DNA of 64,000 nt from Chitinophaga filiformis. Its GTDB lineage: Bacteria; Bacteroidota; Bacteroidia; Chitinophagales; Chitinophagaceae. The DNA lies in assembly GCF_023100805.1 (NCBI RefSeq), contig NZ_CP095855.1, positions 3,079,001-3,143,000 of the forward strand. The letters are read 5' to 3'. Numbering within the stretch: position 1 is the first letter of the stretch; each line of letters opens with the position of its first letter. The position numbers and the translations under genes were made by a program. The notes under the pieces are model-generated. The model worked only from the letters and a program-made list of their open reading frames with translations, did no database searches and was not told the DNA's origin. Shown one piece after another: positions 23,903 to 38,942 of the stretch.

Positions 23903-24387
23903 GGTGGGTTTACATTTAAAGGTACTTAAGGGTTATAATTATCGCTTAAAGTAAATGAAAATAAATTCAAAATAACATTTATTGTAGCGGAAGTTTTTCG
24001 TATAAAAATTGCTGATATGATCATATATATGGTAACGCCTTCATTTACAACTACGCTTTTTATAATGATTGGATGGTAATGAAGAATATTTGTGTTAAAG
24101 TACCCTCGTTACCCGGGTATCACTTTGTCCAAAGTAGCTCCTGGAACACCCCGTTTCCTGTCTGATAAACTTTTCTCCGTAAATCTCCTTGAAATGTTGT
24201 TAATGTTTGATTATCAGTGATTATTGACTTGATTTCGCCCCCTCAAAACATAAGCTTGATCGAAGTACTACCCCTGCTCGTCGAAAAACCATATATGCTC
24301 ATCGAAGTCGTTTTCTATTCATGAGAATGTTTTAGAAATTCAGTTCAGAAAATGGACAACTGCTTAGGAAGCCACAAATTTTATTTT
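23903..24387. other. Divergent intergenic region with LytTR-type sites
   Basis: About 485 bp between the divergent T9SS and barrel genes. Its right part carries the three 21-bp-spaced TCGAA repeats listed separately. The remainder is AT-rich and shows no RNA gene. Confidence 0.6.
24260..24323 (+). promoter_or_regulatory. Triple 21-bp-spaced direct repeat and -7 element
   Basis: TCGAAGTAC (24260), TCGAAAAAC (24281) and TCGAAGTCG (24302) start exactly 21 bp apart, the spacing of LytTR-domain sites such as those of AgrA. A TAT-type -7 candidate, TATTCATG, begins at 24316, 14 bp after the start of the last repeat. The same geometry occurs before the peptide gene at 38452. I infer a binding site for the response regulator at 37579-38310. 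Confidence 0.65.
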
Positions 24388-26781
24388 ATGAAAAGTATAG
24401 TCTTTTATCTGGTGAGTATGTTTTTTGTTATAGGGGCGAGTGCCCAGGCAGTTTCTGTTGCAGGGAAAGTTGCAGATGAAACCGGGCAGCCGGTTCCTTT
24501 TGCCTCTGTTGCTGTATTAAAGGGTACTTCTGTTGTTGGTGAAAAAATAGCCGCTGAAGACGGCAGCTTTAAAATAATGATAGACAGTAGCGGTAAATAT
24601 GAATTGAAGATCCGTCATACATCTTACATAGATTTTTCAAAGGAAATAGAGCTACAAGCCCCACTTGATCTGGAAGCAATTGTGCTGAAGAAAAGTGAAA
24701 AACAATTACGCGAAGTAACAATAACAGCCAATAAACCCTTTGTGACCAGGAAGATAGACCGTGTTGTAATGAATGTGCAGGATAATGCCATTGCAACGGG
24801 AAAGTCTTCTATGGATCTGTTCCGCCTGGCTCCGGGAGTGTTCGTTAATAATGGCAATATTTCTATTAACGGCGTGTGGGGAACCCGCGTAATGGTTAAT
24901 GGAAGAATGCTCAATCTGAAGGGGGATGATCTGAAAAACTACCTGGCTAACTTAAGATCAAGCGATATTAAATCCATAGAAATTATCGCGCATCCTCCCG
25001 CAGAATATGATGCAGAAGGGAGTGGTGGTATCATCAATATCGTGCTGAAGAAAAATCTGAATAGTGGCCTGAATGGCTATGTAGGTGCAGATTATTCTAT
25101 CGGTATAGGAAAGTATCCTGCTTATCAGCCTTATCTGAGCCTCAACTACAGGAAGAAGAAAGTAGGGCTAAGCGGAAGTTATTCCTACGGAAGAGAGAAG
25201 AATTTCCAGGACATTACCCAGGACAGGACATTTACCGATAATGGACAGTATCATGCCACTACTTCTTCAACCGGGTGGAGAAACTCGAATAATGTAAAGC
25301 TGGGCGTTAGCTACGATATCAGCAACAGGGAATACATTGCCGTCGATTATACCGGTCAGTTTGGGTGGTATAAAGATACCAGCCATTCAGTAACAACCAT
25401 CAACTATCCGAACCAGCAGAACAATACGCTTTCTGACGGAATATTCCCTTCCTATACCAAAACAAAGTTTTCGAATATAGGCCTGAACTATGGGATCACT
25501 ACAGATTCTTTAGGCTCTAAATTTACCCTCGTGTCGGACTATACCTATAACGACAGAACCGGGATAAGTGGAACATACAGTAAAACGCTCGATTTTAAAA
25601 ATGCCGTAATAGCAGACACTGTTTTTAACTTTTTATATCCCAGCATTGCGAAGATTTTTACAGCAGACGCCAAATACAACCAGGTGTTTAAGCATGGAAG
25701 ATCCCTGTCTTTCGGAGGAAAGGCTACCGTCACTGATATTGATAATGACAATGCCTATGAGAACTACAATAACGGCGAATGGGGGCATATTCCCGGTCTT
25801 GGATTTAACTATAAATACAGTGAGAAGATCTATGCGGGCTTCGTTAATTTCAGCGGAAGCCTGGCAGGTGTAGAGTATAAATTGGGATTACGGGGTGAAA
25901 ACAGTGATATTACCGGCACCTTAAAAGGGGGAGGGCAGGACACTGTTGTGAAAAGAAGTTATTTCAACCTCTTCCCCTCAGTCTTTTTGAAGAAGAACCT
26001 GAATCAGGACGAAAGCAGTGCCCTTACACTTTCCTATAACAGGAGAATTAAGCGTCCGTCTTACTTTGAGTTGAATCCATATAAATATTTTATTGATAAC
26101 TACACTATACAAACGGGTAATCCCTTTTTAAATCCGCAATTCACCGATGCTGTAGAACTGGGTTATATTTTTGGCAGCCAGTATTATATCGGCATCAGCT
26201 ATTCTCATACAAAGGATGTCATTAACCAGGTGATAGAGAATGATCCTGCGCTGAAGCAAATGACCATCTTGCGGAAGAATACAGGTAGTAATACGGTATA
26301 CACCGGCACATTCAGCATTCCTGTTAAAATAACTGATTGGTGGAATACCAGTAACAACCTGCTGTTGACCTACACCGCATCTAAAGCGCCTGAATTTTCC
26401 ATCAAAAAAGGATCGCTGGTGTTGCAGACAGAACAGGATATTAGTCTTACAAACGGATTTGGCTTAAACCTGAACGGCTTTTATACACCGAGGGTTGTTA
26501 CCGGTAATATTGTTACGGGACACATTGCAAGTATCGACTTTGGTATACAGAAGAAACTCCTGAACAACAAGCTTACAGTAAAAGCATCTATCAGTGATAT
26601 TTTTTACACCAACAACTTCAGGGCAACCAGCTATTATAATGAATCGGTGATCAGGATAAGACAGAAAGAGCAAAGCCGTATGCTTTCACTGTCAACGGTG
26701 TACAATTTTAATATGGGTAAAGCCTTTAAATCAAAAGAGATAAAAAGTAGCAATGCTGATGAGAAAAGCAGGCTAAAATAA
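24388..26781 (+). CDS. Outer-membrane beta-barrel protein (TonB-dependent receptor-like)
   Basis: A 797-residue protein with signal peptide MKSIVFYLVSMFFVIGASA, a carboxypeptidase-regulatory-like domain (VAGKVADETGQPVPFASVAV), a plug-like domain (FVTRKIDRVVMNVQDNA, MDLFRLAPGVFVNNG) and a large barrel, as in the Bacteroidota outer-membrane barrel family. The internal ATG at 24388 is chosen because it opens the signal peptide. It sits directly before the duplicated precursors and shares its upstream control sites with the last peptide of the locus, so it may act in export, uptake or self-protection for the product. That role is inference. Confidence 0.85.
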   Translation: MKSIVFYLVSMFFVIGASAQAVSVAGKVADETGQPVPFASVAVLKGTSVVGEKIAAEDGSFKIMIDSSGKYELKIRHTSYIDFSKEIELQAPLDLEAIVLKKSEKQLREVTITANKPFVTRKIDRVVMNVQDNAIATGKSSMDLFRLAPGVFVNNGNISINGVWGTRVMVNGRMLNLKGDDLKNYLANLRSSDIKSIEIIAHPPAEYDAEGSGGIINIVLKKNLNSGLNGYVGADYSIGIGKYPAYQPYLSLNYRKKKVGLSGSYSYGREKNFQDITQDRTFTDNGQYHATTSSTGWRNSNNVKLGVSYDISNREYIAVDYTGQFGWYKDTSHSVTTINYPNQQNNTLSDGIFPSYTKTKFSNIGLNYGITTDSLGSKFTLVSDYTYNDRTGISGTYSKTLDFKNAVIADTVFNFLYPSIAKIFTADAKYNQVFKHGRSLSFGGKATVTDIDNDNAYENYNNGEWGHIPGLGFNYKYSEKIYAGFVNFSGSLAGVEYKLGLRGENSDITGTLKGGGQDTVVKRSYFNLFPSVFLKKNLNQDESSALTLSYNRRIKRPSYFELNPYKYFIDNYTIQTGNPFLNPQFTDAVELGYIFGSQYYIGISYSHTKDVINQVIENDPALKQMTILRKNTGSNTVYTGTFSIPVKITDWWNTSNNLLLTYTASKAPEFSIKKGSLVLQTEQDISLTNGFGLNLNGFYTPRVVTGNIVTGHIASIDFGIQKKLLNNKLTVKASISDIFYTNNFRATSYYNESVIRIRQKEQSRMLSLSTVYNFNMGKAFKSKEIKSSNADEKSRLK

Positions 26782-26855
26782 AATATTGGTTGCAACAATA
26801 TGGGGATGCCGAAAACCATTACAAAGAGTAGGCGCAACTTTTCAAATTTAAATCT

Positions 26856-27047
26856 ATGTCTACAGAAAAAAAATCAGCTGCCGAGAAAGCTGCTAAAGCG
26901 CTTGAATTTGAAAAATTGAGCGAAAATGAGGCCGGTCAATTGGCCGGTGGCTTTTCAGAAGCTATCTCTGAAAGTGACGCCGATGATGGTGGTTTTGAAA
27001 TCAATATTTCTAAATGCCACTGTACTTCTACCCCCGTTACAGACTGA
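26856..27047 (+). CDS. RiPP precursor peptide 1, GG leader, KCHCT core
   Basis: A 63-residue peptide with a charged helical leader (EKAAKALEFEKLSENEAGQ), a double-Gly site in QLAGGFS and a tail ending INISKCHCTSTPVTD. The leader resembles Bacteroidota double-Gly natural-product leaders; cleavage after GG by the C39 exporter would release about 30 residues. Ser, Thr and two Cys cluster in the last ten residues, suitable for dehydration or Cys-based crosslinks. It is the first of two tandem copies, and the conserved residues between them are in the leader and the C-terminal NISKCHCT motif. Confidence 0.85.
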   Translation: MSTEKKSAAEKAAKALEFEKLSENEAGQLAGGFSEAISESDADDGGFEINISKCHCTSTPVTD

Positions 27048-27204
27048 TCATATCAGTTAACGCTGTAGAAGCTATTAATTCAAAAGCGACAAGAGTCAGC
27101 AATGCTAAAGGAAAAGCAGGCTAAACTTACATGCTTGTTGCAACAATGTGGGGATGCCGAAAACCATTGTATAGAGTAGGCCCAAATTCTAAATTTTTAA
27201 AGCT

Positions 27205-27405
27205 ATGTCCACACAAAAAAAATCATCTATTGAGAAAGCAGCCAAATCTCTGGAAGTTGAAAAACTGACTGAAAATGAAGCAGGTCAGTTAGCCGGTGGG
27301 TTTTCTGATGCTTTGGAAGCAGAAAACCTCGCTGAAGCAGGTGACATTAATATTTCTAAATGTCATTGTACTACCACTCCGACCAAGCCTGCTGAGCCTA
27401 AATAA
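27205..27405 (+). CDS. RiPP precursor peptide 2, GG leader, KCHCT core
   Basis: A 66-residue paralogue of the preceding gene. The leader (KLTENEAGQLAGGFSDA) is nearly the same, the middle is different, and the end INISKCHCTTTPTKPAEPK keeps NISKCHCT then adds a Pro/Lys tail. The pattern of a conserved leader and C-terminal motif with a variable middle is expected if the leader binds the enzymes and the CHCT segment is modified. Followed by a hairpin before the radical SAM gene. Confidence 0.85.
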   Translation: MSTQKKSSIEKAAKSLEVEKLTENEAGQLAGGFSDALEAENLAEAGDINISKCHCTTTPTKPAEPK

Positions 27406-27464
27406 GTATATAGTAGTAGGGATGCCTGGACAGGTTCCGGAAGGCATTTCCTACACTGGATAAA

Positions 27465-27506
27465 TGAATAGCCTGTCGGATTAAGAACAGATAGGCTATT
27501 CATTTT
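27465..27506 (+). terminator. Hairpin between precursors and radical SAM gene (attenuator)
   Basis: A 13-bp stem with one G-T pair (TGAATAGCCTGTC with GATAGGCTATTCA), a 12-nt loop and a short T run. Placed between the precursor genes and the maturase, it could give more precursor than enzyme message. Confidence 0.6.
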
Positions 27507-27580
27507 AAGCTAAGATCTACTAATTGTCCGGCTACTGATCATCTTGTTTTATTTTTTTACTATACTTAAATGATTGTATT

Positions 27581-28906
27581 ATGAAGAAGAGCCAGTTTAA
27601 TACCAGTCTGGTCTATGAGAACAAAAATTATATTTATAATGCATTCAGCAATAAATTCATTGCACTAGACCCCACTATTGCTGAAATTTTAGCGACTATC
27701 AGAACGCCGGAGAATATAGAAGAACTTTCAGCATATCACCCAACGTTATATAGTTCGCTTTACAGGAACGGATTTTTTGTAGATGATGAAGTGGATGAGG
27801 TGGAAAAAGTGAAAGAACTGAGTGCTAAGGTCGATAAGAACGATACGCATTTTGAATTGATCGTGAATCCAACCATGAACTGCAATTTCAAATGCTGGTA
27901 TTGTTACGAATCGCATGTTAAAGGATCGAAAATGAATAAAGAAACGGTTAATAAAACCTGTTCTTTGATCGCCAATATCATTGAGTCTAACCCCAATCTT
28001 AAATCTTTTCATATTTCCTGGTTTGGCGGAGAGCCACTCATGTATTATCGTGATGTGATCGAACCTATCATGGATTTTGCGGAAGATTTCTGTGCCATTC
28101 ACAATATTTATCTTGACTGTCACTTTACTACCAATGGGTTCCTGCTGACAGACGAGATTATCCAATCATTGAAAAAATATACGATCACCGGTCTCCAGAT
28201 CACGCTGGACGGCAATAAGGAAACACATAATACCGTAAGGTATGTCAGTGCTACAAGAGGTTCCTACGATACCATTGTCAGCAATATCGTGAAATTGTGT
28301 GAGAACGATTTTCACGTGGGTATAAGGGTGAATTATACCAGTACCAATATGGATGGTTTTGAAGAGGTTTTTGATGACCTGTGTGCTATTTCTAATGAGA
28401 AAAGGCACCTGGCCACCATCGCATTTCACAAAGTATGGCAGGTGAGTGAAGACCAGGTAATGGCCGACAGGGTAAGAAGCCTGATCCGCCTGGTGAGAGA
28501 CATTGGCTTTGTGGCCGAAGAGGGCGCAGTTCCCGATAGTGTCAGGCATTCCTGCTATGCAGATAAAGTTAATAACGCTACAATAAACTATAACGGCGAT
28601 ATCTATAAATGTACTGCACGAAACTTTGCACCAGATGCCAGGGAAGGCGTGCTGAAAGATGATGGTAGCATAGAATGGAATTCAAAATTCCATAAGCGGA
28701 TGGATATCAAATTCAAGAATAAACCCTGCCTGGAGTGCCCTATTATGCCACTGTGTAACGGCGGTTGCTCACAACACGCTTTGGAAAATGAAGGAAAAGA
28801 TTATTGTGTATACGATTTTGATGAGGAGAAGAAGAAGGAAATAGTAATGAAAAAGTTAATGAATCTCATCGATAAAAGGAACAGCAATGAATACAGCCAC
28901 TCATAG
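27581..28906 (+). CDS. Radical SAM/SPASM peptide maturase
   Basis: A 441-residue enzyme. Residues 1-80 look like a peptide-recognition region (YNAFSNKFIALDPTIAEIL). The radical SAM cluster is CNFKCWYC (Cys101, 105, 108, CX3CX2C). The C-terminal SPASM region has CYADKVNNATINYNGDIYKC and CLECPIMPLCNGGC, binding auxiliary Fe-S clusters. Relatives form carbon-carbon, thioether or ether links, or epimerise residues, in RiPP precursors. It follows the two KCHCT precursors by 175 bp, so those are likely substrates. All cluster Cys appear present; the exact chemistry cannot be read from sequence. Confidence 0.93.
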   Translation: MKKSQFNTSLVYENKNYIYNAFSNKFIALDPTIAEILATIRTPENIEELSAYHPTLYSSLYRNGFFVDDEVDEVEKVKELSAKVDKNDTHFELIVNPTMNCNFKCWYCYESHVKGSKMNKETVNKTCSLIANIIESNPNLKSFHISWFGGEPLMYYRDVIEPIMDFAEDFCAIHNIYLDCHFTTNGFLLTDEIIQSLKKYTITGLQITLDGNKETHNTVRYVSATRGSYDTIVSNIVKLCENDFHVGIRVNYTSTNMDGFEEVFDDLCAISNEKRHLATIAFHKVWQVSEDQVMADRVRSLIRLVRDIGFVAEEGAVPDSVRHSCYADKVNNATINYNGDIYKCTARNFAPDAREGVLKDDGSIEWNSKFHKRMDIKFKNKPCLECPIMPLCNGGCSQHALENEGKDYCVYDFDEEKKKEIVMKKLMNLIDKRNSNEYSHS

Positions 28907-29729
28907 CATAGCCAACGACGACTTTTTTTCCGCCATATATTCCAGGGAGATCCTGGCAAAGGTTGCATGCGGGGAGGAACTATCGAAATACGATTATTAT
29001 GAGTCGGTTTTTCAGAACGCTTTAAACCTGGCAAAGCGCAAACAACTGGAGGAGAGTATCAGGGTTTTTGAAGAGGGCGAGAGGATGCTAGAAAAGGAGG
29101 AGAAACGATCAGACCTGGGCGCTGTTCTATCAGATACTTTGTATCCCAAGAAAGCCTACCTGTATTATAAGTTAAAGCGCATGCCGCTTGCGCGGCTGCT
29201 TACCTATAAATCGATCATTACGAATGAGGGGCTGAAGCGATCCCGCGGATTTAATTTCCTGGTATTTATTCAGACACAACAATATCACAACATCGCCCGG
29301 ATCTTTTTTGCTGAATCCAAATTAAAAGAGGGCATTCAGCTGAGTTACCGCTTGATATGGTTCCTGCTGACGAAAGAGTCGGCCGGAGTAAGATACCTGG
29401 ATACAATTGAGCATCCGGTAGTGGAGGAAGAATCGCAGGTGAGGTGTGCTATGACCTACCAGGTGCTGTTTGAATTGTTAGGGATACTGGCCAGAATGAA
29501 GAATAATGTGGCGTTTTATGTGAAATCCCTGATCGTTTTCCTGAAAGAGATCATTCAGTATTTCGATGTGTGTAACGACAGGGAAGAAACACTTAAGAAC
29601 TTTCTGATTGTATTATCAGGTATAGATCTTCATGACCGGAGCCATTATATCAACGCTGCCAATCATTTTTTACAGACTTCAAAGGATATGTTTCCTAATA
29701 CTGAAAAGGTTATTAAGTTATTCTATTGA
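28887..29729 (+). CDS. Unknown helical protein in RiPP locus
   Basis: A 280-residue protein with no signal peptide and no catalytic motif that I recognise. It is strongly helical with TPR-like segments (SVFQNALNLAKRKQLEESIRVFEEGERML; LYYKLKRMPLARLLTYKSI). Its start overlaps the end of the radical SAM gene by 20 nt, which implies translational coupling and a partner role. It may be a scaffold or precursor carrier for the maturase. It is followed 35 bp later by two small peptide genes. No function is assigned. Confidence 0.75.
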   Translation: MNTATHSIANDDFFSAIYSREILAKVACGEELSKYDYYESVFQNALNLAKRKQLEESIRVFEEGERMLEKEEKRSDLGAVLSDTLYPKKAYLYYKLKRMPLARLLTYKSIITNEGLKRSRGFNFLVFIQTQQYHNIARIFFAESKLKEGIQLSYRLIWFLLTKESAGVRYLDTIEHPVVEEESQVRCAMTYQVLFELLGILARMKNNVAFYVKSLIVFLKEIIQYFDVCNDREETLKNFLIVLSGIDLHDRSHYINAANHFLQTSKDMFPNTEKVIKLFY

Positions 29730-29764
29730 TCAGGGTAATATTAACACAATAAATCAGTTGAAAA

Positions 29765-29968
29765 ATGAAGAAGCTAAAAGATCTGTTTACTAAGAATACC
29801 ACCCCGGCATTGGAGCAATGCACCGCTTTTGCGATAAAGAATGAAGAGTCGGATACGGTGTACGGAGGATTTAAGGAATATAAGCCTCCTATCTATGAGC
29901 AGGATGATACTACTAACTGTTCATACAAAACGAACGACTTGTTAATCGATATTAATCAAACTAAATAA
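29765..29968 (+). CDS. RiPP precursor-like peptide 3, GG site
   Basis: A 67-residue peptide. The N-terminal part (MKKLKDLFTKNTTPALEQCT) and the site SDTVYGGFKEYK look like a double-Gly leader and junction, and the predicted tail of about 32 residues has Pro-Pro, Asp-rich and TTNCSYKTND segments. It is unrelated in sequence to peptides 1 and 2. The next small gene starts 7 nt downstream. Identification as a precursor rests on size, GG site and position before the C39 exporter. Confidence 0.7.
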   Translation: MKKLKDLFTKNTTPALEQCTAFAIKNEESDTVYGGFKEYKPPIYEQDDTTNCSYKTNDLLIDINQTK

Positions 29969-29975
29969 GTGTGTC

Positions 29976-30191
29976 ATGTCACAGAAGAAAAAAAACAAAA
30001 AAGACAAATCCAAAGACAAGAAGAGCCGCATCGTGGATATTGATAAGCTAAAGTCATTTGGCATTATTAAAGGTGAGGGTGAAGGCGAAGGTGATGAAAA
30101 TATAGAGGAAATTGACGGGGATAATGTTACCGGTGGCAAAACCGATGATGATACCACAGTCGATACGCATTGGCCTACCGGCAGGGAGTAA
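29976..30191 (+). CDS. RiPP precursor-like peptide 4, Lys/Glu-rich, GG site
   Basis: A 71-residue peptide with an extremely basic start (MSQKKKNKKDKSKDKKSR), an acidic centre (GEGEGEGDENIEEIDGDN), and a candidate double-Gly site NVTGGKTDDD. The tail after GG would be only about 17 residues (ending DTHWPTGRE), with several Thr, one Trp and no Cys. It may be a precursor or an accessory peptide; its composition is unusual for a leader. It sits 42 bp before the exporter gene. Confidence 0.6.
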   Translation: MSQKKKNKKDKSKDKKSRIVDIDKLKSFGIIKGEGEGEGDENIEEIDGDNVTGGKTDDDTTVDTHWPTGRE

Positions 30192-30233
30192 GGAATGGCT
30201 GAATGCGGCAACTGATTTTAAAACTCCAATGCA

Positions 30234-32534
30234 ATGGCTCTATTTAGTAAAAAATATAAGTTTTATAAACAGTTGGACTATATGGATTGTGGTCCGACCT
30301 GTTTACGTATGATTGCTGCCTATTACGGTGAAGAGTATTCACTGGATTACCTGCGTGCAAATTCATACATCACTAAGAACGGTGTCAGTTTACTGGGATT
30401 AAGTGAGGCTGCAGAGAAGATCGGGTTCAAAACGATGTCTGCAAAGTTAACTTATGATCAGCTAACCGGAAATGTGCCGCTGCCATGTGTGCTGCACTGG
30501 AACCAGGAGCATTACGTGGTATTGTATGCGGTGGAAAAGAAGAGTATTTTTCGCCCGGTAGAGCGGATCGTCATTGCAGATCCCGGCCATAACCTGGTAA
30601 GGGTAGACAGGGATGTGTTTGAAAAGTGCTGGATCAGTTCTGCCGACAAGAAAGGTATTGCCTTATTAATGGAGCCTACCCCGGAATTTTACCGGAACGC
30701 AGAGGAGGTACAAACTGTGAAGACCGGATTTGGTTTCCTGGTGGGCTATCTAAGGCCCTATAAGCGTTATTTTGTTCAGCTGATACTGGGAATGCTGCTG
30801 GCGAGCCTTATCAGTATGTGTTTTCCTTTCCTTACCCAAAGCCTGGTCGACTTTGGAGTGAGCCGTAAGAAGATGAACTTTATATACCTGATCCTGCTCT
30901 CCCAGTTGCTGCTTTTCCTCGGGGGAATAGCGGTAGACCTTATCAGGAACTGGATCCTCTTGCATATCAGCACCCGGATCAGTATCAGTATTATCTCGAA
31001 TTTCCTGATCAAGCTGATGAAACTACCCATTAATTTTTTTGAGTCAAAAAATGTGGGAGACATTACGCAACGTATCAATGATCATAGAAGGATTGAATCT
31101 TTCCTGACAGGGTCCACGCTTAGCACGCTGTTCTCCATTATCAACCTGTTTGTGTTCTCTTTTGTCCTGTCCCTTTATAATACAAAATTGCTGTTGGTAT
31201 TCGCGTTGGGAAGCGCCTTATCCATTTTTTGGATCTCCATTTTTCTTAAGAGAAGGAAGAATATCGATTATAATCGTTTTCAAAGAGCCAGGGAGAATCA
31301 GAACAGCTTGTTTGAAATTATAACAGGCATGCAGGAAATTAAGCTGTATAACAGCCAGAAAGCAAGGCGCTGGGAATGGGAGCGCATTCAGGCGAAACTG
31401 TTCAAAGTAAATATCAAGAGCCTCGCACTGGAACAATACCAGGGGATAGGCGCTTCTTTTTTCACGCAGCTTAAGAATATTGTCATCAGCTATTTGGCCG
31501 CCAGGCTGGTAATAGAGCAACAGATCACGCTGGGCGTGATGTTGAGTATTTCCTATATCGTAGGGCAGATGAATAGTCCGCTGGACCAGATCATTTCATT
31601 TATAAAGAATGTTCAGGATGCAAAAATAAGCCTGGACAGGCTGAATGAGATCCACAGCAAGCCCGAAGAAGAGACCAATGAGGACCTTATCGGGTACAAT
31701 GAAAATAAGTGGCCGAGGGAACCTGTGAATAGCTCGGATGCGTTGTATTTAAGCCATGAGCTTTTTACCAGGAGCATCAGGAGGAACACCGGTGATGGCA
31801 TTACTATTTCCAATGTTTCTTTCAGATATGGATCGCCTAAAAGTCCGCTTGTGCTGAAGAACGTCAGCATGCATATTCCAAAAGGAAAAGTTACGGCTAT
31901 AGTGGGCGCAAGTGGCAGCGGGAAAACCACTTTACTGAAATTGCTGCTGAAATTTTATCCGCCTTCCGAAGGGCAGATCCTGGTCGATGAAGTTAATCTT
32001 CAGGATATATCCGCCCAGTTATGGCGTAATAACGTGGGAACGGTTATGCAGGATGGCTTTGTTTTTTCCGATTCCATTGCGCGGAATATCGCAGTGGATG
32101 GAGAGCGCATCCAGGAGGAGAAGCTGTACGAAGCGGTGAGGATAGCCAATATGCATGAGTTTATTGCGAAGCTGCCTTTAGGGTTCACAACAAGGATAGG
32201 TAACTCCGGATCTGGTTTGAGCGGCGGACAGAAGCAGCGTTTATTTATAGCCAGGGCTGTATATAAAGATGCGAAGTATTTATTTTTCGATGAAGCCACC
32301 AGTGCGCTTGATGCGAATAATGAAAAGGTCATTATGGAAAACCTGAACCAGTTTTATAAGGGCAGGACCGTGGTGGTAATAGCGCATAGGCTGAGCACTG
32401 TTAAAAATGCGGATCAGATCATAGTGATGAAAGATGGCGAGGTGGTGGAAGAAGGACATCATACAGAGTTGACCAGGACCAAAGGCTATTATTTTGAATT
32501 GGTTAAAAATCAATTGGAATTAGATGTAGCATAA
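30234..32534 (+). CDS. C39 peptidase-containing ABC exporter (PCAT)
   Basis: A 766-residue protein. The N-terminal C39 peptidase has QLDYMDCGPTCLRMIA with the catalytic Cys and a His in LHWNQEHYVVLY, with Asp in IVIADPGH. A six-helix membrane domain follows (around residues 165-440). The ATPase has Walker A VGASGSGKTTLL, signature SGLSGGQKQRLF and Walker B YLFFDEATSALD. Such exporters cleave leaders after double Gly and secrete the core. Peptides 1 to 4 in this locus have GG sites; the last peptide (38452) does not. Forms an operon with the membrane-fusion gene 11 nt downstream. Confidence 0.95.
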   Translation: MALFSKKYKFYKQLDYMDCGPTCLRMIAAYYGEEYSLDYLRANSYITKNGVSLLGLSEAAEKIGFKTMSAKLTYDQLTGNVPLPCVLHWNQEHYVVLYAVEKKSIFRPVERIVIADPGHNLVRVDRDVFEKCWISSADKKGIALLMEPTPEFYRNAEEVQTVKTGFGFLVGYLRPYKRYFVQLILGMLLASLISMCFPFLTQSLVDFGVSRKKMNFIYLILLSQLLLFLGGIAVDLIRNWILLHISTRISISIISNFLIKLMKLPINFFESKNVGDITQRINDHRRIESFLTGSTLSTLFSIINLFVFSFVLSLYNTKLLLVFALGSALSIFWISIFLKRRKNIDYNRFQRARENQNSLFEIITGMQEIKLYNSQKARRWEWERIQAKLFKVNIKSLALEQYQGIGASFFTQLKNIVISYLAARLVIEQQITLGVMLSISYIVGQMNSPLDQIISFIKNVQDAKISLDRLNEIHSKPEEETNEDLIGYNENKWPREPVNSSDALYLSHELFTRSIRRNTGDGITISNVSFRYGSPKSPLVLKNVSMHIPKGKVTAIVGASGSGKTTLLKLLLKFYPPSEGQILVDEVNLQDISAQLWRNNVGTVMQDGFVFSDSIARNIAVDGERIQEEKLYEAVRIANMHEFIAKLPLGFTTRIGNSGSGLSGGQKQRLFIARAVYKDAKYLFFDEATSALDANNEKVIMENLNQFYKGRTVVVIAHRLSTVKNADQIIVMKDGEVVEEGHHTELTRTKGYYFELVKNQLELDVA

Positions 32535-32545
32535 ATAGTAATAAT

Positions 32546-33280
32546 ATGCCAGAGAATAATCAATCTTTTGAGATCAGGAGTAATGAAATGGATGAAGTGG
32601 TGGGGAATATTCCCGGATGGATCATCCGTTGGGGGATCAGTGTTTTATTTGCTGTGGCTATACTGGGTTTACTGATAGCCAACCTGATACGTTACCCTGA
32701 TATATTGCAGGCTACGGTGCTGATGCAGAGTGAAAACCAGCCAGGGAAGGTAACCATAAGAAGGACGGACGAAAATTCTAATTTTAAGTTTAACTACCTC
32801 GTGAAAAGTGGCGACGAGGTGACTCCTGGCGATACCCTGTTGACACGATATGATCCGAAGGAAGCTAAGAACTATTACACGATCACTCCTATGGCAGGTA
32901 AGATCTATATCACAAAGGGTATAGATGAAAAGAATACATTGGACCAGATCATATGGGTGGTACCTAAATCGTCCAAGGCTGAGATAAAGGTGAAGTATAA
33001 CAGTAAGCGTGCGGGTAACGTCAAGGTAGGGCAGGCTGTTAAAATAGAGCTGTCTGACTTTCCAAGTAATGAGTATGGATTTTTGGAAGGAACTATTTCT
33101 TCCATTCTCCCTGTACAGATGGATGGCGAGCATCTGGCCTATGTAGAGCTGAACCAGCAAAAGATCGTTACTTCCGAGAAAAAAGAGATACCTATTTTAC
33201 CGGTGATGGAAGGAAGTGCTGAAATAGTGCTGAGCGACAGGAGTATTTTTCAGAGAATTTTTGGAAGTATGTTTAATTGA
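32546..33280 (+). CDS. HlyD-like membrane-fusion protein (short)
   Basis: A 244-residue protein with one N-terminal membrane helix (ISVLFAVAILGLLIANLI), a biotinyl-lipoyl-like segment (LVKSGDEVTPGDTLL, ITPMAGKIYITKG) and a C-terminal beta domain (VKVGQAVKIELSDFPSNEYG). The long coiled-coil hairpin of ordinary HlyD proteins is lacking, as in some Bacteroidota exporters. It would link the C39 exporter to an outer-membrane channel, which is not evident in the locus except perhaps the barrel gene at 24388. Confidence 0.85.
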   Translation: MPENNQSFEIRSNEMDEVVGNIPGWIIRWGISVLFAVAILGLLIANLIRYPDILQATVLMQSENQPGKVTIRRTDENSNFKFNYLVKSGDEVTPGDTLLTRYDPKEAKNYYTITPMAGKIYITKGIDEKNTLDQIIWVVPKSSKAEIKVKYNSKRAGNVKVGQAVKIELSDFPSNEYGFLEGTISSILPVQMDGEHLAYVELNQQKIVTSEKKEIPILPVMEGSAEIVLSDRSIFQRIFGSMFN

Positions 33281-33324
33281 TCCCTGGTGTATCCTGTTTT
33301 TGAGAATTTATATTTATTGCATAT

Positions 33325-33344
33325 ATTGGTTACTGGTAACCCAT
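33325..33344. promoter_or_regulatory. Near-palindrome upstream of lanB
   Basis: ATTGGTTAC-TG-GTAACCCAT is a 20-bp near-perfect palindrome (one mismatch per 9-bp arm) in the 107-bp gap before the dehydratase. An operator or a small hairpin; function not known. Confidence 0.4.
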
Positions 33345-33387
33345 TTCAACCATATATATTATCTGCAATCCAGTACTTAAGAATAAT

Positions 33388-36300
33388 ATGCAGGAAGGAT
33401 CCTTTAAAGATTATGGTAAAGTTGTTGTAAGAACGCCACTATACTCCTACCGGCGTTTATTTGACGAGCAGCACAACACACTTGATCTTGACGGGCTTGT
33501 ACTTACCATGTTGGGCGATCCTGTATTTGTTGAAGGCCTCTACTGGAGTTCCCCGCAACTGCATGAAACAGTGCTGGCGTTTAAAAATGGACATCTTGAT
33601 ACTTCCCGGCAACAGAAACTGATGCATACTTTAAAAAAGTATGCTATTCGTGCAAGTACACGGTCTACTCCTTATGGTATTTATGCAGGATGCGCCCTGG
33701 CCGGTTTGGACGGTCAAGAGGCTCCTGTCGATAATGCCAGTGTGCGAAAGGTGCGCATTGATATGGGCTTGCTTCAGCAGATAGTAAGGAAAATAGAAAA
33801 GCATCCCGACTTGTGGGTGCACCTTCGGTATAAGGTAAACGACTCTTTATACCGTATTGCCGGCCAGTACCGTTTTATAGAGGCCATTGAGGAAGAAGGC
33901 AAATTTCAGTATCAGATCAGTTCTGTTGACCAGACAGCGGTGCTGGAAGAGCTCATTGCTTTTGTACGCCAGCATGCGGCTGTTACTATTGGCGATATGT
34001 ATGCTTTGTTTGGTGAAGACAATACCTATGAAGAGTTTGAATCGTTTGTGGGAGAGCTGATCGAAACGCAGCTATTGGTAAGTGAATTACAGTTAGGATT
34101 GACTGTTGAAAATGAGATAGGGCGTATCCGGGGCGTGCTGGAAAGAGTAGCGGAACAAGCTGTTACAACAGCCAGGGGCTTTATTGACTTGTTCGAAGAG
34201 ATTCAAAAAATACTAAGCAGATTTGAGGACCTTCCCCTTGGTGTTTTACCGATCGATGATATCCATCATCTGGAAATGGTATTAAAGGGGTTAAATATAG
34301 AAGTGGCACAACGCCATATTTTCCATGCCGATCTTAAACAACCAGCCTCCGCTCCATTTACCCTCCCCGGCACCGGGTTAAGGGAAATCGAAAAAGCCAT
34401 TTCCATATTAAGCAAGCTTTCGCATGCTGCATCTCCGGTGGAAGTGCAGCTGGAGCGTTTTAAAAAGAGGTTTGTCGAAAAGTATGAAACGCAGGAAGTG
34501 CCATTGGCTGAGGTATTAGATCCTGAATTCGGTATTGGATTTCCTGCTACTGACAACATTGGTAACGTGGCGCATAACTCCCTGGCGGAAAGGATGAATT
34601 TACCTGCTAAAAAAAAAGCGGGCAAAAGAGCCGGTGAGTGTAATGCCTGGCTGCAGGATAGGGTGGAATGTTGGGACAGAGAGACCTTGAGGAAAGGCAT
34701 CCGGCTGCATGATAAGGATTTTGAAAAGCTGGAAGACAAATCATACCAGCTTGCCAATTACTTCACCGTAATGGGTACCTGCATTCCTTCCGGCGATGTG
34801 TTGTTGCAGCATATCGGAGGTGCACATTCGAATATACTATTGGGAAGATTTGCACACCTTGGCGAGGATATGAGCGCTTTTTGCAGCGCACTTGCCCGGG
34901 ATGAAATGAAGGCCAATGAACACGTTATTTTTGCGGAGATCATACATATTCCTGAGGGTAGGGTAGGTAATGTAGCCAGAAGAGAACCTTTTTTCCATTA
35001 TGAAATTCCGTTCCTGGGCGCCAGTGCTATGGAGAGCGACAGGCAGCTGACCATTGAGGACATGATGCTTTCTATTCAACGGGACGAGATTATTCTCCGC
35101 TCGCGCAAATGGAACAAGCGTATAGTGCCGCGACTGTCTAATGCCCATAATTATGCAAACAGTGCTGTTGCAGTATATAAATTTCTGGCAACGCTGCAGT
35201 ACCAGGGAAAGTCCGGCTTCGAGATCAACTGGGGATCCTTGTCGCAGTATAAACGTTTTCTACCCCGTATCAGTTATAAGCAGTTCATTTTGCATCGTGC
35301 TACCTGGACCTTGCGGGAATCTGATATACGGGATATCCTGGATGCTGATGATCAACTGGCAGCACTCAGGCTGTTTTTATCCAGGTGGGAGGTAGCGAGA
35401 TTTGTATGTTTCTGTGAGGGCGATAATGAGCTATTCATGGACATTGAGAATGATACTTATTTACAGGTACTGCTGAAAGAGATGCGGGGATGTAATACAG
35501 TAAAACTGGCGGAATGGTTATTTGATAATGAGGCATCTGAACAAAGCAGCAGTGGCGAGCCCTTTGCACAGCAGTTCATACTTCCCCTGGCAAAGCGGAA
35601 GCCGGTGAAAATACATTCATGCAGAAAGGATGGGGACGACAAAATACAACGTGCTTTCGAGCCGGGCAGCGAGTGGGTGTATTTTAAAATATTCTGTGGA
35701 GCGAAGGCATCGGATAGGATCTTATCGGAGGCGATAAAACCTGTTATCGATTTCCTATTGCAGGAGCAGGTGATCGACCAGGCTTTTTTCATTCGTTATA
35801 CGGATCCGCATTATCACATCAGGTTCCGCCTGCACTTGAGGCATAATGAAGGGGGAGGGCAGTATGCTGCTGCCACAAAGTATATTTATAATATATTGCA
35901 TCCGTATCTGGAAGACAAGCTGGTATGGAAGGTACAGCAGGACACTTATCAGCGGGAAATAGAAAGATACGGAGAGGGCGATATGTTGCTGACAGAAACG
36001 GTTTTTTTCCACGATAGCCTTTCGTTTCTTTCCTGTATAGGAGAGGAGGATTTTGAAGATGATCAGCAGATAAGGTTTCTGACATCCATTAAAAATATGG
36101 ATAACTGGTTGTCTTTATATGGGATGTCAATACCCGAAAGGGTCGCTTTCTGTACTGAGATGTCTGAGGCTTTTGCCCATGAATTTGGACGGGATGTAAA
36201 ACGGCAATTGAATGTGCAATATCAGGAATGGAGAAAGCCGATAGCGGAGTTTTTGAACGGGGAACGTTTTAACGGGGTATTTGCCGAAAGAGCTGCAAAG

Positions 36301-36462
36301 TTGAGGCATGTGAAATTGCCTTTAGACAATATTTCAAGTTACATACATATGAGTATGAACAGGTGGTTTGCTACCGAGCAACGCTTAATGGAATATATGG
36401 CATATTATTTTTGCGGAAAGTATTATAATCAAATCGTGCATCAGAAAAATGGAGCGCAGTAA
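33388..36462 (+). CDS. lanB: LanB-type lantibiotic dehydratase, fused two-domain
   Basis: A 1024-residue protein joining the glutamylation domain and the elimination domain. The first shows the LanB segment RASTRSTPYGIYAGCALAG near residues 90-110. The C-terminal domain begins near residue 760 with EWVYFKIFCGAKASDR and includes FIRYTDPHYHIRFRLHL, the SpaB-type motif. LanB uses glutamyl-tRNA to dehydrate Ser and Thr to Dha and Dhb. Bacteroidota pinensin loci are described with a split dehydratase, whereas this one is fused. No LanC cyclase gene is visible in the window. The 3' end overlaps the kinase gene by 14 nt. Confidence 0.93.
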   Translation: MQEGSFKDYGKVVVRTPLYSYRRLFDEQHNTLDLDGLVLTMLGDPVFVEGLYWSSPQLHETVLAFKNGHLDTSRQQKLMHTLKKYAIRASTRSTPYGIYAGCALAGLDGQEAPVDNASVRKVRIDMGLLQQIVRKIEKHPDLWVHLRYKVNDSLYRIAGQYRFIEAIEEEGKFQYQISSVDQTAVLEELIAFVRQHAAVTIGDMYALFGEDNTYEEFESFVGELIETQLLVSELQLGLTVENEIGRIRGVLERVAEQAVTTARGFIDLFEEIQKILSRFEDLPLGVLPIDDIHHLEMVLKGLNIEVAQRHIFHADLKQPASAPFTLPGTGLREIEKAISILSKLSHAASPVEVQLERFKKRFVEKYETQEVPLAEVLDPEFGIGFPATDNIGNVAHNSLAERMNLPAKKKAGKRAGECNAWLQDRVECWDRETLRKGIRLHDKDFEKLEDKSYQLANYFTVMGTCIPSGDVLLQHIGGAHSNILLGRFAHLGEDMSAFCSALARDEMKANEHVIFAEIIHIPEGRVGNVARREPFFHYEIPFLGASAMESDRQLTIEDMMLSIQRDEIILRSRKWNKRIVPRLSNAHNYANSAVAVYKFLATLQYQGKSGFEINWGSLSQYKRFLPRISYKQFILHRATWTLRESDIRDILDADDQLAALRLFLSRWEVARFVCFCEGDNELFMDIENDTYLQVLLKEMRGCNTVKLAEWLFDNEASEQSSSGEPFAQQFILPLAKRKPVKIHSCRKDGDDKIQRAFEPGSEWVYFKIFCGAKASDRILSEAIKPVIDFLLQEQVIDQAFFIRYTDPHYHIRFRLHLRHNEGGGQYAAATKYIYNILHPYLEDKLVWKVQQDTYQREIERYGEGDMLLTETVFFHDSLSFLSCIGEEDFEDDQQIRFLTSIKNMDNWLSLYGMSIPERVAFCTEMSEAFAHEFGRDVKRQLNVQYQEWRKPIAEFLNGERFNGVFAERAAKLRHVKLPLDNISSYIHMSMNRWFATEQRLMEYMAYYFCGKYYNQIVHQKNGAQ

Positions 36463-37552
36463 CGAGTTTTCAATATATCCGAATCAGTCAGCGAAGCAGC
36501 TATTGCATATTTTATACTGGGTGGTCATGTTATTTTTCATCATGGCTATTACGTCCTACTCTTTCAAAGCCAGTATGTTTAATACCGAAAGTATGCTCTT
36601 TTCCTGCAGTGTACTATGCAATACCATGTTGATCCATTATTTTGTTTGTTATTTCGGTTTCAGGCATGTCAGGAAAAAGCGATGGGCTTTAATTATAGTG
36701 GACATTCTGGCTATATATTTATTGTCTTTATTTATAACCACCTGTTCTTTGACCCTATTGAAGTATGTGCGCCCTGATAATACGGTTATTGCCCGGTTGT
36801 ACAAGAACTTTGCGGTGAATAGTTTCGACAAGGTTTTTAATGGTGAATTGCTGCTGTGGATACTTTCATTAATAATATGGTTTAACACTGTTGGGATAAT
36901 TATAAAAATAGTGAAGGATTTCCACGAGAGTTCCCTGGAAAAGCTGGCCATTGCCCAGGAGAAGAATTCTATGGAAATAAGCTTTCTGCGGGCGCAGATA
37001 CAGCCGCATTTTTTATTTAATACCTTAAACAGCATATACGGGTTGATCATTCATAACGAGGAGGCGAGCAAGGTGGTCATCCAATTGTCCAATTTACTGC
37101 GTTTTTCCCTGTATGATAGTGCAAAGGAGCATATTACACTTAGAGAAGAAATTGAATTCCTGAGTAATTACCTCTTGCTTGAAAAAATGCGCTATAAGGA
37201 AAGCAGGGTGCAGATCGAGTACGATTTTGAGCGGATAGAGAACAAAGAAAAAATCATTAAACCCTTAATTTTAATTAACTTTATTGAAAATGCGTTTAAA
37301 CATGGAATAAATGCTACCATAAAAAACGCATGGATAAAATTATCTATGACGGAGCAGGAAGGCATTTTGACCTTTCATTCTGCAAACAATAAACCCATTG
37401 CAGCCTCCGGCAAAAGGAATAATGAATCTGCCGGTGGTCTTGGACTTAAGAATGTGCGACGCAGACTGGAGTTGGAATATCAAACGCGCTACAGCCTGGA
37501 TATAAAGGAAACGGAAGATGTTTATGAAGTGTCCCTGATCTTAAAGTTGTAA
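36449..37552 (+). CDS. LytS-type membrane sensor histidine kinase
   Basis: A 367-residue kinase with four predicted membrane helices in the first 150 residues, then the His_kinase motif ISFLRAQIQPHFLFNTLNSI, where the His is the phosphorylation site, and a C-terminal ATPase (INFIENAFKHGI, AGGLGLKNVRRRLEL). The gene overlaps lanB, so it is co-expressed with the biosynthetic genes, and lies 26 bp before its partner response regulator. It may sense the product or a membrane signal, as in peptide-pheromone systems. Confidence 0.92.
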   Translation: MERSNEFSIYPNQSAKQLLHILYWVVMLFFIMAITSYSFKASMFNTESMLFSCSVLCNTMLIHYFVCYFGFRHVRKKRWALIIVDILAIYLLSLFITTCSLTLLKYVRPDNTVIARLYKNFAVNSFDKVFNGELLLWILSLIIWFNTVGIIIKIVKDFHESSLEKLAIAQEKNSMEISFLRAQIQPHFLFNTLNSIYGLIIHNEEASKVVIQLSNLLRFSLYDSAKEHITLREEIEFLSNYLLLEKMRYKESRVQIEYDFERIENKEKIIKPLILINFIENAFKHGINATIKNAWIKLSMTEQEGILTFHSANNKPIAASGKRNNESAGGLGLKNVRRRLELEYQTRYSLDIKETEDVYEVSLILKL

Positions 37553-37578
37553 CCTATACCCTTTTTTAGCCTTTTACA

Positions 37579-38310
37579 ATGAAAGTCCTGATAGTTGATG
37601 ATGAACCCATAGCCCAGCAAATACTGGAGAATCTGTCCAGGAAAGTAAGCTATTTAAACATTGTAGGTATTTGCGACAATGCGATCGTTGCATTGGAATC
37701 GATACAGGAGTTGCAACCGGACCTGATCTTTCTGGATATACAAATGCCGGAAATGACGGGACTGGAGATGTTGCGTATTCTCCGCCAGAAAAATATACTG
37801 GTTATATTTACAACCGCTTTTCATGAACATGCCCTTGAAAGTTATGAATTGGATGCGGTAGATTATCTGCTTAAACCTGTTGCATTTGAGCGCTTCCTCA
37901 AAGCAGTCACGAAGGCAAGTGAACTCTTTAAACTAAAGCAAATACAGCAGCAGCAGGTCATCAATGTTGCCAGAAATGGCGAGAGCAAAAACTATGTATG
38001 GGCAAAGGAAGGCCGTAAGCGAGTGCAGATATGTATAGAGGATATTATCCTGGTGCAGGCCTTAAAAGACTATATGGAGTTACAGTTGCCGACCGGGAAA
38101 GTTATTTTGAACATCACTATGAATAAAATAGAGGAATTGTTGCCTCCCCCTTTTTTTCTACGCGTTAACCGCTCCTGCATTGTTCGTAAAAGCGCTATTA
38201 AGTATATCCAGGACATGCATATAGAAATTAACCATCCCACGGTTAAAAGAATCCCCATTGGTCCTACTTATTGGGAGGATGTGAAAAAACATATCGTGGA
38301 GTTATTTTAA
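37579..38310 (+). CDS. LytTR-family response regulator
   Basis: A 243-residue regulator: a receiver domain with LIVDDEP, Asp54 in LIFLDIQMP and the Lys of YLLKPV, then a LytTR DNA-binding domain (IEDIILVQALKDYMEL; FFLRVNRSCIVRKSAIKYI). LytTR domains bind pairs of direct repeats one 21-bp step apart. Such repeats lie before the barrel gene at 24260 and before the peptide gene at 38357, which makes this protein the natural candidate for both. That link is inference. Confidence 0.93.
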   Translation: MKVLIVDDEPIAQQILENLSRKVSYLNIVGICDNAIVALESIQELQPDLIFLDIQMPEMTGLEMLRILRQKNILVIFTTAFHEHALESYELDAVDYLLKPVAFERFLKAVTKASELFKLKQIQQQQVINVARNGESKNYVWAKEGRKRVQICIEDIILVQALKDYMELQLPTGKVILNITMNKIEELLPPPFFLRVNRSCIVRKSAIKYIQDMHIEINHPTVKRIPIGPTYWEDVKKHIVELF

Positions 38311-38356
38311 GTTGTGATCAGCAATTTAACATAATGAATTGTTACTCCTGCCTTTG

Positions 38357-38399
38357 TCGAAAAACAGTTGTGCTTGGTCGATTGGATTATGTATCTTTT
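38357..38399 (+). promoter_or_regulatory. 21-bp-spaced direct repeat and promoter of the last peptide gene
   Basis: TCGAAAAAC (38357) and TCGATTGG (38378) start 21 bp apart. A promoter overlaps: TTG at 38368-38370, 21 nt, then TATCTTTT at 38392-38399 (TAnnTTTG with the last base changed). The -7 box begins 14 bp after the start of the second repeat, exactly as at 24316. Confidence 0.65.
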
Positions 38400-38451
38400 T
38401 CATAAAAGCGAAACTTCGGATTAAATAATCATTAATCCTAAAACTAGCGCT

Positions 38452-38601
38452 ATGTCAACCAAGAAACTCCAAATCAAAAAACGTGTCGTTTGTAAGTGCA
38501 AAGCAGAAGAACGGCCTGTACTTCCTAAAAACAACCGTGACGCTAAAACAGCTCCTGACACCACTGTTACTATTCCTCCTACTGGTTTTACTACTTTTTG
38601 A
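38452..38601 (+). CDS. Class I lanthipeptide-like precursor, 49 aa
   Basis: A small gene of 49 codons. It reads MSTKKLQIKKRVVCKCKAEE at the start, then a Pro- and Thr-rich tail (DTTVTIPPTGFTTF). The leader KKLQIKKRVV resembles the short KKLxLKK-type leaders of Bacteroidota class I lanthipeptides; there is no double-Gly site. There are seven Thr in the last 17 residues but no Cys after residue 16, so rings would need Cys14/16 upstream of the dehydrated Thr. It has its own promoter, 141 bp after the regulator, and a strong terminator. A LanB substrate by position and composition. Confidence 0.75.
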   Translation: MSTKKLQIKKRVVCKCKAEERPVLPKNNRDAKTAPDTTVTIPPTGFTTF

Positions 38602-38942
38602 TTGCTGAGTAGGCTGATATCTGCCTGACACTTATACGACTAGTTTGATGGCTATGATGCCGCATTTTTCCTCCAATTTTATCGCCTTACTTAGAAAGCA
38701 ATTGAACAAAGCGCCGGGGACCATCTCCGGCCTTTGTTTTTATATAGAGAACTCCGGCCATCAAGGCTTTCGATTTGTAATGAATAAGTTGTTTGGATGG
38801 ATCAGGATGCATCCTGACAGCGGTATGTGAGGCGAACCTGTTTATCCGGAACGCATTGATCTGTTGTGGTGAAAACGGATTTATACGGACGATTCGCCTG
38901 AGCTATATATTGGTCATTGCGCGGGTTCTGTGAAACCAGTAT
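38602..38942. other. Intergenic region after the RiPP locus
   Basis: 341 bp with the terminator listed separately. The remainder shows no coding signal on either strand. Confidence 0.5.
38713..38742 (+). terminator. Rho-independent terminator after last RiPP peptide
   Basis: An 8-bp GC-rich stem (GCCGGGGA with TCTCCGGC, one G-T pair), a 3-nt loop and a T run. It marks the end of the RiPP locus. Confidence 0.8.

Follow-up and report, generated by a model that had tools for sequence, protein, structure and literature searches.

Several described systems of ribosomally synthesised and post-translationally modified peptides (RiPPs) resemble parts of a gene block in Chitinophaga filiformis, which lies in a 64,000-nucleotide stretch of contig NZ_CP095855.1 (positions 3,079,001 to 3,143,000; the whole stretch is called the window, and all coordinates below refer to it) and joins a LanB dehydratase and a radical SAM peptide maturase to a C39 exporter. 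The pinensin-type class I lanthipeptides of Bacteroidota share with the block a two-domain LanB and a precursor leader of the KLxLxK type, as described in the available part of the source (PMC7268733), and pearlins and pyritides share a LanB-superfamily enzyme without LanC and Cys-free precursors (PMC11002830, accessible sections). On the radical SAM side, the ranthipeptide and sactipeptide maturases (PapB, SCIFF/CteB, TIGR04463) have the same radical SAM/SPASM architecture and Cys-containing leader peptides. The Bacteroidales radical SAM peptides with a double-glycine (GG) leader (TIGR04149/TIGR04148) combine a radical SAM enzyme, a GG-leader peptide and a C39 exporter in the same phylum; in the corresponding survey no LanB is reported for 1,136 Bacteroidales genomes (PMC10352776). 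Dehydration and a radical SAM enzyme occur in one Bacteroidota pathway in the dehydrazoles, and the same source, in its available part, gives thiopeptides a truncated or split LanB (PMC10676384). A large lanthipeptide survey was mined by LanC and dropped precursors without a core Cys, as far as its accessible text describes the design (PMC7268733), a design that would pass over LanB systems that lack LanC and have peptides free of Cys.

A composite locus with two separable modules

The block forms a single co-directional unit on the forward strand (24352-38601) in which gaps are short or genes overlap. It runs from an outer-membrane β-barrel gene through the precursor genes R1 and R2, the radical SAM enzyme gene, a gene for a 280-aa protein (P280), two small peptide genes (PEPA and PEPB) and the genes for the C39 exporter, an HlyD-like protein, LanB, a LytS-type kinase and a LytTR-type regulator to a further small peptide gene, PEPC. 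Domain matches confirmed the gene content and coordinates given in an original prediction made from the sequence of the window for the LanB, radical SAM enzyme, C39 exporter, LytS/LytTR pair and barrel; P280 (28887-29729) was missing from its gene list.

The radical SAM enzyme was searched against genome contigs, and the best 80 of 118 relatives were taken. A composite-type LanB accompanies 12 of the 80, namely in five Chitinophaga (loci L035-L039), two Chryseobacterium (L041 and L040, the latter a metagenome-assembled genome), a Pedobacter sp. (L043), Filimonas zeae (L044), a Bacteroidetes metagenome-assembled genome (L045) and, in rearranged form, Sphingobacterium paludis (L048) and Pedobacter caeni (L058). 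Together with the window and L146 (genome G249), this gives 14 composite loci from at least three families in three arrangements. The 13 further loci show the same gene set as far as their sequence reaches, that of L048 ending before PEPA and PEPB and that of L058 inside the kinase gene. The locus is real, conserved and modular, and it is not peculiar to this genome. The original prediction had held that no described locus has exactly this set. Among the papers searched, which mostly exclude subscription papers and were judged by titles and abstract starts, no publication describing the gene set was found, and to that partial extent the claim stands uncontradicted, although the set itself recurs in the 13 other loci.

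Both modules also occur apart. This LanB was not seen, within the available stretch, at 68 of the 80 radical SAM relatives; 50 of these 68 extend 8 kb or more to either side, and some absences may therefore reflect contig ends. In 63 of the 68 a C39-type ABC gene follows the radical SAM gene in the same orientation and within 3 kb (in 52 strictly after it, in 11 more with an ABC gene start that overlaps the radical SAM gene); hence the radical SAM module normally has its own transporter. A relative of the barrel lies within 8 kb of the radical SAM gene in 57 of the 68. The modules lie apart in L048 and L058, and there no transporter of the radical SAM module's own was seen in the available stretch. 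LanB, LytS and LytTR with a Thr-tailed peptide were found without a radical SAM or C39 gene nearby (e.g. L148, L152, L157, L163 and L261), and the LanB of L148, where the order is LanB, LytS, LytTR and peptide, belongs to the same clade as the composite LanBs. In L268 (G004) the rest of the block stays, and the radical SAM enzyme is swapped for a different one (449 aa) with a 331-aa protein at the place of P280 and a different Cys precursor. A LanB search at E 1e-150 gave one match, 34% identical, in a sample of 394 other genomes of the class, and 3 of 293 other sampled genomes of the family have LanBs at 44-57% identity.

As the radical SAM enzyme is seen without this LanB, the LanB without the radical SAM enzyme, and the latter is swapped in L268, the block is probably to be explained as two linked RiPP modules sharing one exporter, with the chemistry set out here. 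Of the two options originally offered, two linked pathways with a common exporter are thus favoured over one pathway combining dehydration with radical chemistry. The first module would comprise the barrel, R1/R2, the radical SAM enzyme and P280. The enzyme would bind R1 and R2 via their leaders and join Cys with a second residue, most likely Asn at the fourth position upstream (NISKC). The second would comprise PEPA, PEPB, the C39 exporter, the HlyD-like protein, LanB, LytS, LytTR and PEPC. Its LanB would glutamylate and dehydrate Thr in PEPC and probably PEPB, and without LanC and without Cys in the tails of PEPC and PEPB the products would remain linear, with a high content of dehydrobutyrine. 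The C39 exporter would cleave at GG and export R1/R2, PEPA and PEPB, and PEPC, which has no GG, would have to be processed by another route. LytS/LytTR would act as regulators of the block and might sense one of its products. What is observed is the gene content with its conservation, the independence of the modules, the lack of LanC in the window, the retained catalytic residues and the selection on the peptides; the chemistry, the pairing of peptide and enzyme, export and sensing are inferred.

Some relatives carry other combinations. Another LanB, split in several cases, lies within ~10 kb of the radical SAM gene in nine of the 68 loci (L042, L057, L074, L085, L095, L103, L108, L111 and L114). 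In Chitinophaga niastensis (L042, 11333-17546) the radical SAM enzyme is accompanied by a LanC-like protein without the CHG motif and a glycosyltransferase-like protein. A stand-alone receiver domain is encoded near the Thr-tailed peptide gene in L042, L148, L152 and L268, and a receiver-like protein, as judged by eye, in L040 and L041.

LanBs with and without LanC, and their peptides

The LanB of the window (33388-36462) is full-length, with PF04738 (Lant_dehydr_N, 381 bits) and PF14028 (Lant_dehydr_C, 185 bits) in a single chain that aligns to NisB chains; it has both the glutamylation and the elimination domain, as do the full-length or split LanBs of class I lanthipeptides. The 14 composite LanBs are invariant at the 16 catalytic positions inspected, save for E to D in one; these positions align with the glutamylation and elimination residues of NisB. 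As predicted, the window has no LanC: of the four PF05147 matches in the genome, none falls inside it.

The setting of such enzymes was surveyed with LanBs from 294 genomes of the family (E up to 1e-30) and 395 of the class (E up to 1e-20), together with those of the radical SAM loci; G264 (a fragment) and G624:C22 were left out. This gave 100 unique full-length LanBs, of which 86 have flanks of 2.3 kb or more on each side and 14 were dropped for short flank. When LanC was looked for up to 8 kb, and LytS/LytTR up to 5 kb, from LanB, the 86 Bacteroidia loci divided into 9 with both, 35 with LanC only, 36 with LytS/LytTR only and 6 with neither (Fisher p 6.7e-10). No LanC was detected nearby in 42, and 36 of those have LytS/LytTR. 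Near LanB, 11 of 12 composite loci and 20 of 24 other LanC-less LytS/LytTR loci have a small open reading frame (ORF) whose product has a tail rich in Thr and no more than one Cys. Peptides with a class I-like leader and at least two Cys were found in none of the 12 and 2 of the 24, as compared with 26 of 44 LanC loci and 2 of 6 loci with neither. Thr-tailed peptides occur singly (L259, L185, L256, L074, L152, L157) or, in L261, as a tandem array of six, five of them 48 aa long, that separates the kinase and regulator genes. A DPT-like motif was found in 14 of the 24 LanC-less LytS/LytTR loci, 5 of the 44 LanC loci, 2 of the 6 with neither and 5 of the 12 composite loci, the window not among them.

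In a LanB tree (FastTree, with long-branch warnings), the 14 composite LanBs and L148 form one clade with support 100. None of these 15 was seen with a LanC alongside, L048 and L058 having short flank. A second, separate clade of 19 rows likewise has no LanC seen, with LytS/LytTR in 16. The LanC label changes 10 times on the tree, against a mean of 33.8 when shuffled. In the LanC-less LytS/LytTR group the catalytic positions are largely kept (22-26 of 26 LanBs per position). Full-length LanBs of Bacteroidia tend to occur in two settings, one with LanC and Cys peptides and the other with LytS/LytTR and short, mostly Cys-free, Thr-tailed peptides.

The five small peptides of four types that had been predicted in the block were borne out as coding genes. 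The ratio of non-synonymous to synonymous change (pN/pS), tested for one peptide per type against four to five Chitinophaga relatives, is 0.16-0.24, and they are therefore coding genes under purifying selection. PEPA (29765-29968, 67 aa, pN/pS 0.16) and PEPB (29976-30191, 71 aa, pN/pS 0.20) have a GG site and are present in 13 of the 14 composite loci, L048 ending before both; a near-invariant GGFKEYKPPIY marks PEPA, and PEPB has a Cys-free core with near-invariant Thr in DTTVDTHWPT. PEPA was found in 7 of 148 relatives, all at composite-type loci (the window genome, five genomes with match positions that fit the Chitinophaga records, and G004). PEPC (38452-38601, 49 aa, pN/pS 0.24) combines a class I-like leader (KLQIKKRVV), whose pattern is kept in 12 aligned copies, with a Cys-free, Thr-rich tail, DTTVTIPPTGFTTF. 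Its last 26 residues are without Cys in all 12, and no Cys is conserved across them; a thirteenth copy is present in L146, and the sequence of L058 stops before PEPC. No NCBIfam or Pfam match was found for R1, R2 or PEPB at E up to 1, and weak Pfam matches of PEPA and PEPC (WhiB, 0.017, and DUF4629, 0.027) are below cut-off and were judged to be chance. As judged by their GG sites, R1/R2, PEPA and PEPB look like substrates of the C39 exporter (30234-32534; C39 peptidase PF03412, 108 bits, with the ABC membrane domain PF00664 and the ATPase domain PF00005). The predicted membrane-fusion protein (32546-33280) is indeed HlyD-like but just 244 aa long, with TIGR01843 at 58.8 bits, below the cut-off of 208.65.

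Because the Thr-tailed peptides are mostly Cys-free, LanC is absent nearby and the LanB catalytic residues are kept, the window LanB most likely makes linear dehydrated peptides, which fits the products originally envisaged. Tentatively, and as a real though lesser prospect, a full-length LanB with LytS, LytTR and a short, mostly Cys-free, Thr-tailed peptide may represent a Bacteroidota-wide, cyclase-free RiPP class, whose linear, dehydrobutyrine-rich signals would be sensed by the kinase. The window would then be a derived form with an added radical SAM module (Cys-to-Asn link) and one exporter for both. The pattern of LanB, LytS, LytTR and peptide without LanC is the part that could prove to be a class of its own.

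Several observations weigh against these interpretations. Nine LanC loci also have LytS/LytTR, and the Thr-tail scan is positive in 14 of the 44 LanC loci and 4 of the 6 with neither. At least five LanC-less LytS/LytTR loci of other genera (L173, L176, L178, L180 and L181) have one Cys near the C-terminus, and thus 'Cys-free' is not absolute. Given shared descent, the Fisher p overstates the evidence, and the tree count is fairer. In L048 and L058 the LanB is near the sequence edge, where a LanC beyond would escape detection. The window PEPC has two Cys (VVCKCK) close to the leader, not conserved in the aligned copies, and its lack of a GG site leaves PEPC export unexplained by a shared exporter. 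A leader-motif scan split the groups weakly (12 of 19 vs 11 of 44); owing to this poor separation and to plainly spurious ORFs among its hits, it was not used as support.

An account compatible with two modules is that PEPA, PEPB or PEPC is modified, exported and sensed by LytS (36449-37552; PF06580, His_kinase, 90.7 bits), which would make the LanB part a communication circuit and not an antibiotic pathway. The frequency of LytS/LytTR within 5 kb of LanC-less LanBs (36 of 42), the minimal set inspected, which consists of LanB, kinase, regulator and peptide, and the strongly conserved cores of PEPA and PEPB point in this direction. However, in the minimal loci inspected no gene for export was noted, regulators often adjoin antibiotic genes, and LytS/LytTR pairs are common in Bacteroidota; signalling of this kind is possible but on the doubtful side. 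The regulator itself (37579-38310) matches BtsR/LytR models below cut-off.

The radical SAM module and accessory features

The radical SAM enzyme (27581-28906) has a CxxxCxxC motif and PF04055 at 70.7 bits. Its predicted SPASM type agrees with a SPASM-like Cys cluster, but the Pfam SPASM match of 14.8 bits is below the cut-off of 21.5. None of the NCBIfam matches listed (best 25 of 63) reaches its cut-off, the best being TIGR04463 (187.5 vs 525 bits), and among them no named ranthipeptide or sactipeptide maturase family matched above cut-off. The closest solved chain by sequence is 5wgg (1.1e-17), the thioether-forming SCIFF maturase CteB. As in ranthipeptide and sactipeptide loci, the maturase, with its SPASM match under the Pfam cut-off, adjoins Cys-containing leader peptides. 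These are R1 (26856-27047, 63 aa), with an LAGG cleavage site and a core reading ..INISKCHCTSTPVTD, and R2 (27205-27405, 66 aa; pN/pS 0.23 against four relatives), with a core reading ..INISKCHCTTTPTKPAEPK; similar peptides lie 5' of the radical SAM gene in relatives.

The precursor cores place Asn four residues before Cys far more often than expected. In 115 non-redundant cores, collapsed from 157 by similarity, Asn was observed at -4 of Cys 145 times against 53.9 expected. Averaged over 72 loci, with one spurious row (L081) dropped, 36.6% of Cys have Asn at -4, whereas shuffled cores give 11.7% (z 13.6, exceeding all 300 shuffles), and 57 of the 72 loci have at least one such site against a shuffle mean of 33.5. 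NISKC is present in both R1 and R2 of the window. This preference suggests a Cys-to-Asn link. Counting against so specific a link, Asn is also enriched at -1 (z 7.5), -3 (z 6.4) and -5 (z 5.5), which makes -4 the peak and not the sole signal, and N-x3-C is absent from 3 of the 12 composite loci listed (L045, L048 and L058).

The cores and leaders also bear on the single pathway mentioned above, in which LanB and the radical SAM enzyme would act in turn on R1/R2, leaving dehydrated Thr and a radical-made link in the same peptide. The linkage of the genes in all 14 loci, across families and arrangements, is consistent with such a pathway, as are the Thr-containing stretches that follow KCHC at the end of Chitinophaga R cores. 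However, the R cores of L043, L044 and L146 end in Cys and have two Ser and no Thr, the R leaders lack, by eye, the KLQIKKRVV-type leader of PEPC, and the 68 radical SAM relatives show no such LanB in the available stretch; a joint pathway is therefore unlikely.

In L043, L044, L045 and L146 the radical SAM module is joined by a nitroreductase-family protein and/or a LanD-like flavoprotein, and the precursor has a C-terminal Cys. These calls were made by domain scan in L044, by sequence homology in L146, by position and length in L043, and for the flavoprotein alone in L045. Given the flavoprotein and the terminal Cys, aminovinylcysteine formation may be considered for these loci, but L043, L044 and L146 have no closely spaced Ser/Thr.

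P280 (coordinates above) is a predicted all-helical accessory protein resembling tetratricopeptide repeat (TPR) proteins. Its AlphaFold2 model, from an alignment of ten rows of which three (the counterparts in L044, L048 and L058) are just 17-19% identical, is all helix with a mean predicted local distance difference test score of 87.8. TPR proteins were the best Foldseek matches, weak at E 0.012 with none under 0.001, and the Pfam match is also weak. A role in peptide handling is a guess. The barrel protein (24352-26781; PF14905, OMP_b-brl_3, 314 bits; PF13715, a CarboxypepD_reg-like plug, 37.5 bits) is the upstream partner of the radical SAM module.

A DUF805b RNA (RF02914) lies directly 5' of each precursor gene. 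The copy before R1 (26799-26834, 41.1 bits) is over the gathering score of 35.6 as a cis-regulatory RNA, and that before R2 (27147-27182, 33.0 bits) is slightly under it. The genome has eight copies over the cut-off and three more at 30-35 bits (L270-L279), and four of the copies outside the block precede short proteins that look secreted by eye; 14 control genomes gave weak matches, none over the cut-off. The core letters GCCGAAAA occur around the start of 23 of the 157 radical SAM precursor candidates, mostly from composite loci, with a background of 61 in 5190 stretches. A terminator-like hairpin (38713-38731; eight pairs, six of them G-C, with a T-rich tail) could end the block, although such matches are not enriched across the region (16 vs 13.0 in shuffles), and a promoter scan was at chance level. 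The protein encoded next to the block (22445-23902) has a type IX secretion system sorting domain match barely under the cut-off (22.5 vs 23 bits).

Comparison with known systems

The possibility that this LanB group goes no further than glutamylating its peptide or attaching an amino acid, as peptide aminoacyl-tRNA ligases do, derives from the pearlin loci, which likewise lack LanC and core Cys. In the accessible sections of the source, however, pearlin LanBs are short and have a glutamylation-like domain only (PMC11002830), and the window LanB keeps an elimination domain (PF14028) together with its R, H and Y positions, so that ligase-like activity would be surprising. Least credible of all is that the LanB is paired with a LanC encoded elsewhere and that PEPC, with its two Cys, is an ordinary class I lanthipeptide: a genome-wide search of the kind the original prediction had proposed did find a single class I LanC (150 bits), along with three kinase-LanC fusions, but the former lies ~1.4 Mb off, next to a LanB of its own and a pair of Cys peptides (L149), none of the 15 LanBs of the composite clade (two of them with short flank) was seen with a LanC alongside, and the Cys of PEPC are not conserved. 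The three fusions (L002, L003 and L004) are class III/IV-like.

With two linked modules as the preferred explanation, the block differs from each described system in a different respect. Set against pinensin-type class I lanthipeptides, as presented in the available part of PMC7268733, it has no LanC near the locus and no Cys in the PEPC tail, and it has LytS/LytTR and a radical SAM module. Pearlins and pyritides use truncated LanBs, according to the same portion of PMC11002830, and pyritide and thiopeptide LanBs are truncated or split, whereas the window LanB is a single full-length chain. If LanC-less LanB loci make linear dehydrated peptides, they would form a large overlooked group and offer ready test cases.

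The radical SAM enzyme stands below the cut-off of every NCBIfam maturase listed, and its precursors favour N-x3-C with a barrel gene alongside, which sets it apart from the ranthipeptide and sactipeptide maturases; the targets of PapB are C-x3-D. The composite locus thus offers a radical SAM family with an unusual precursor pattern. The Bacteroidales GG-leader family TIGR04149 matched one of six related precursors scanned, weakly (15.5 vs 25 bits), and neither R1 nor R2. Finally, dehydrazoles combine a LanM-like LanMbC, YcaO azoles and a radical SAM epimerase, as far as the accessible text of PMC10676384 goes. The composite locus would also be a natural example of two kinds of RiPP chemistry served by a single exporter.

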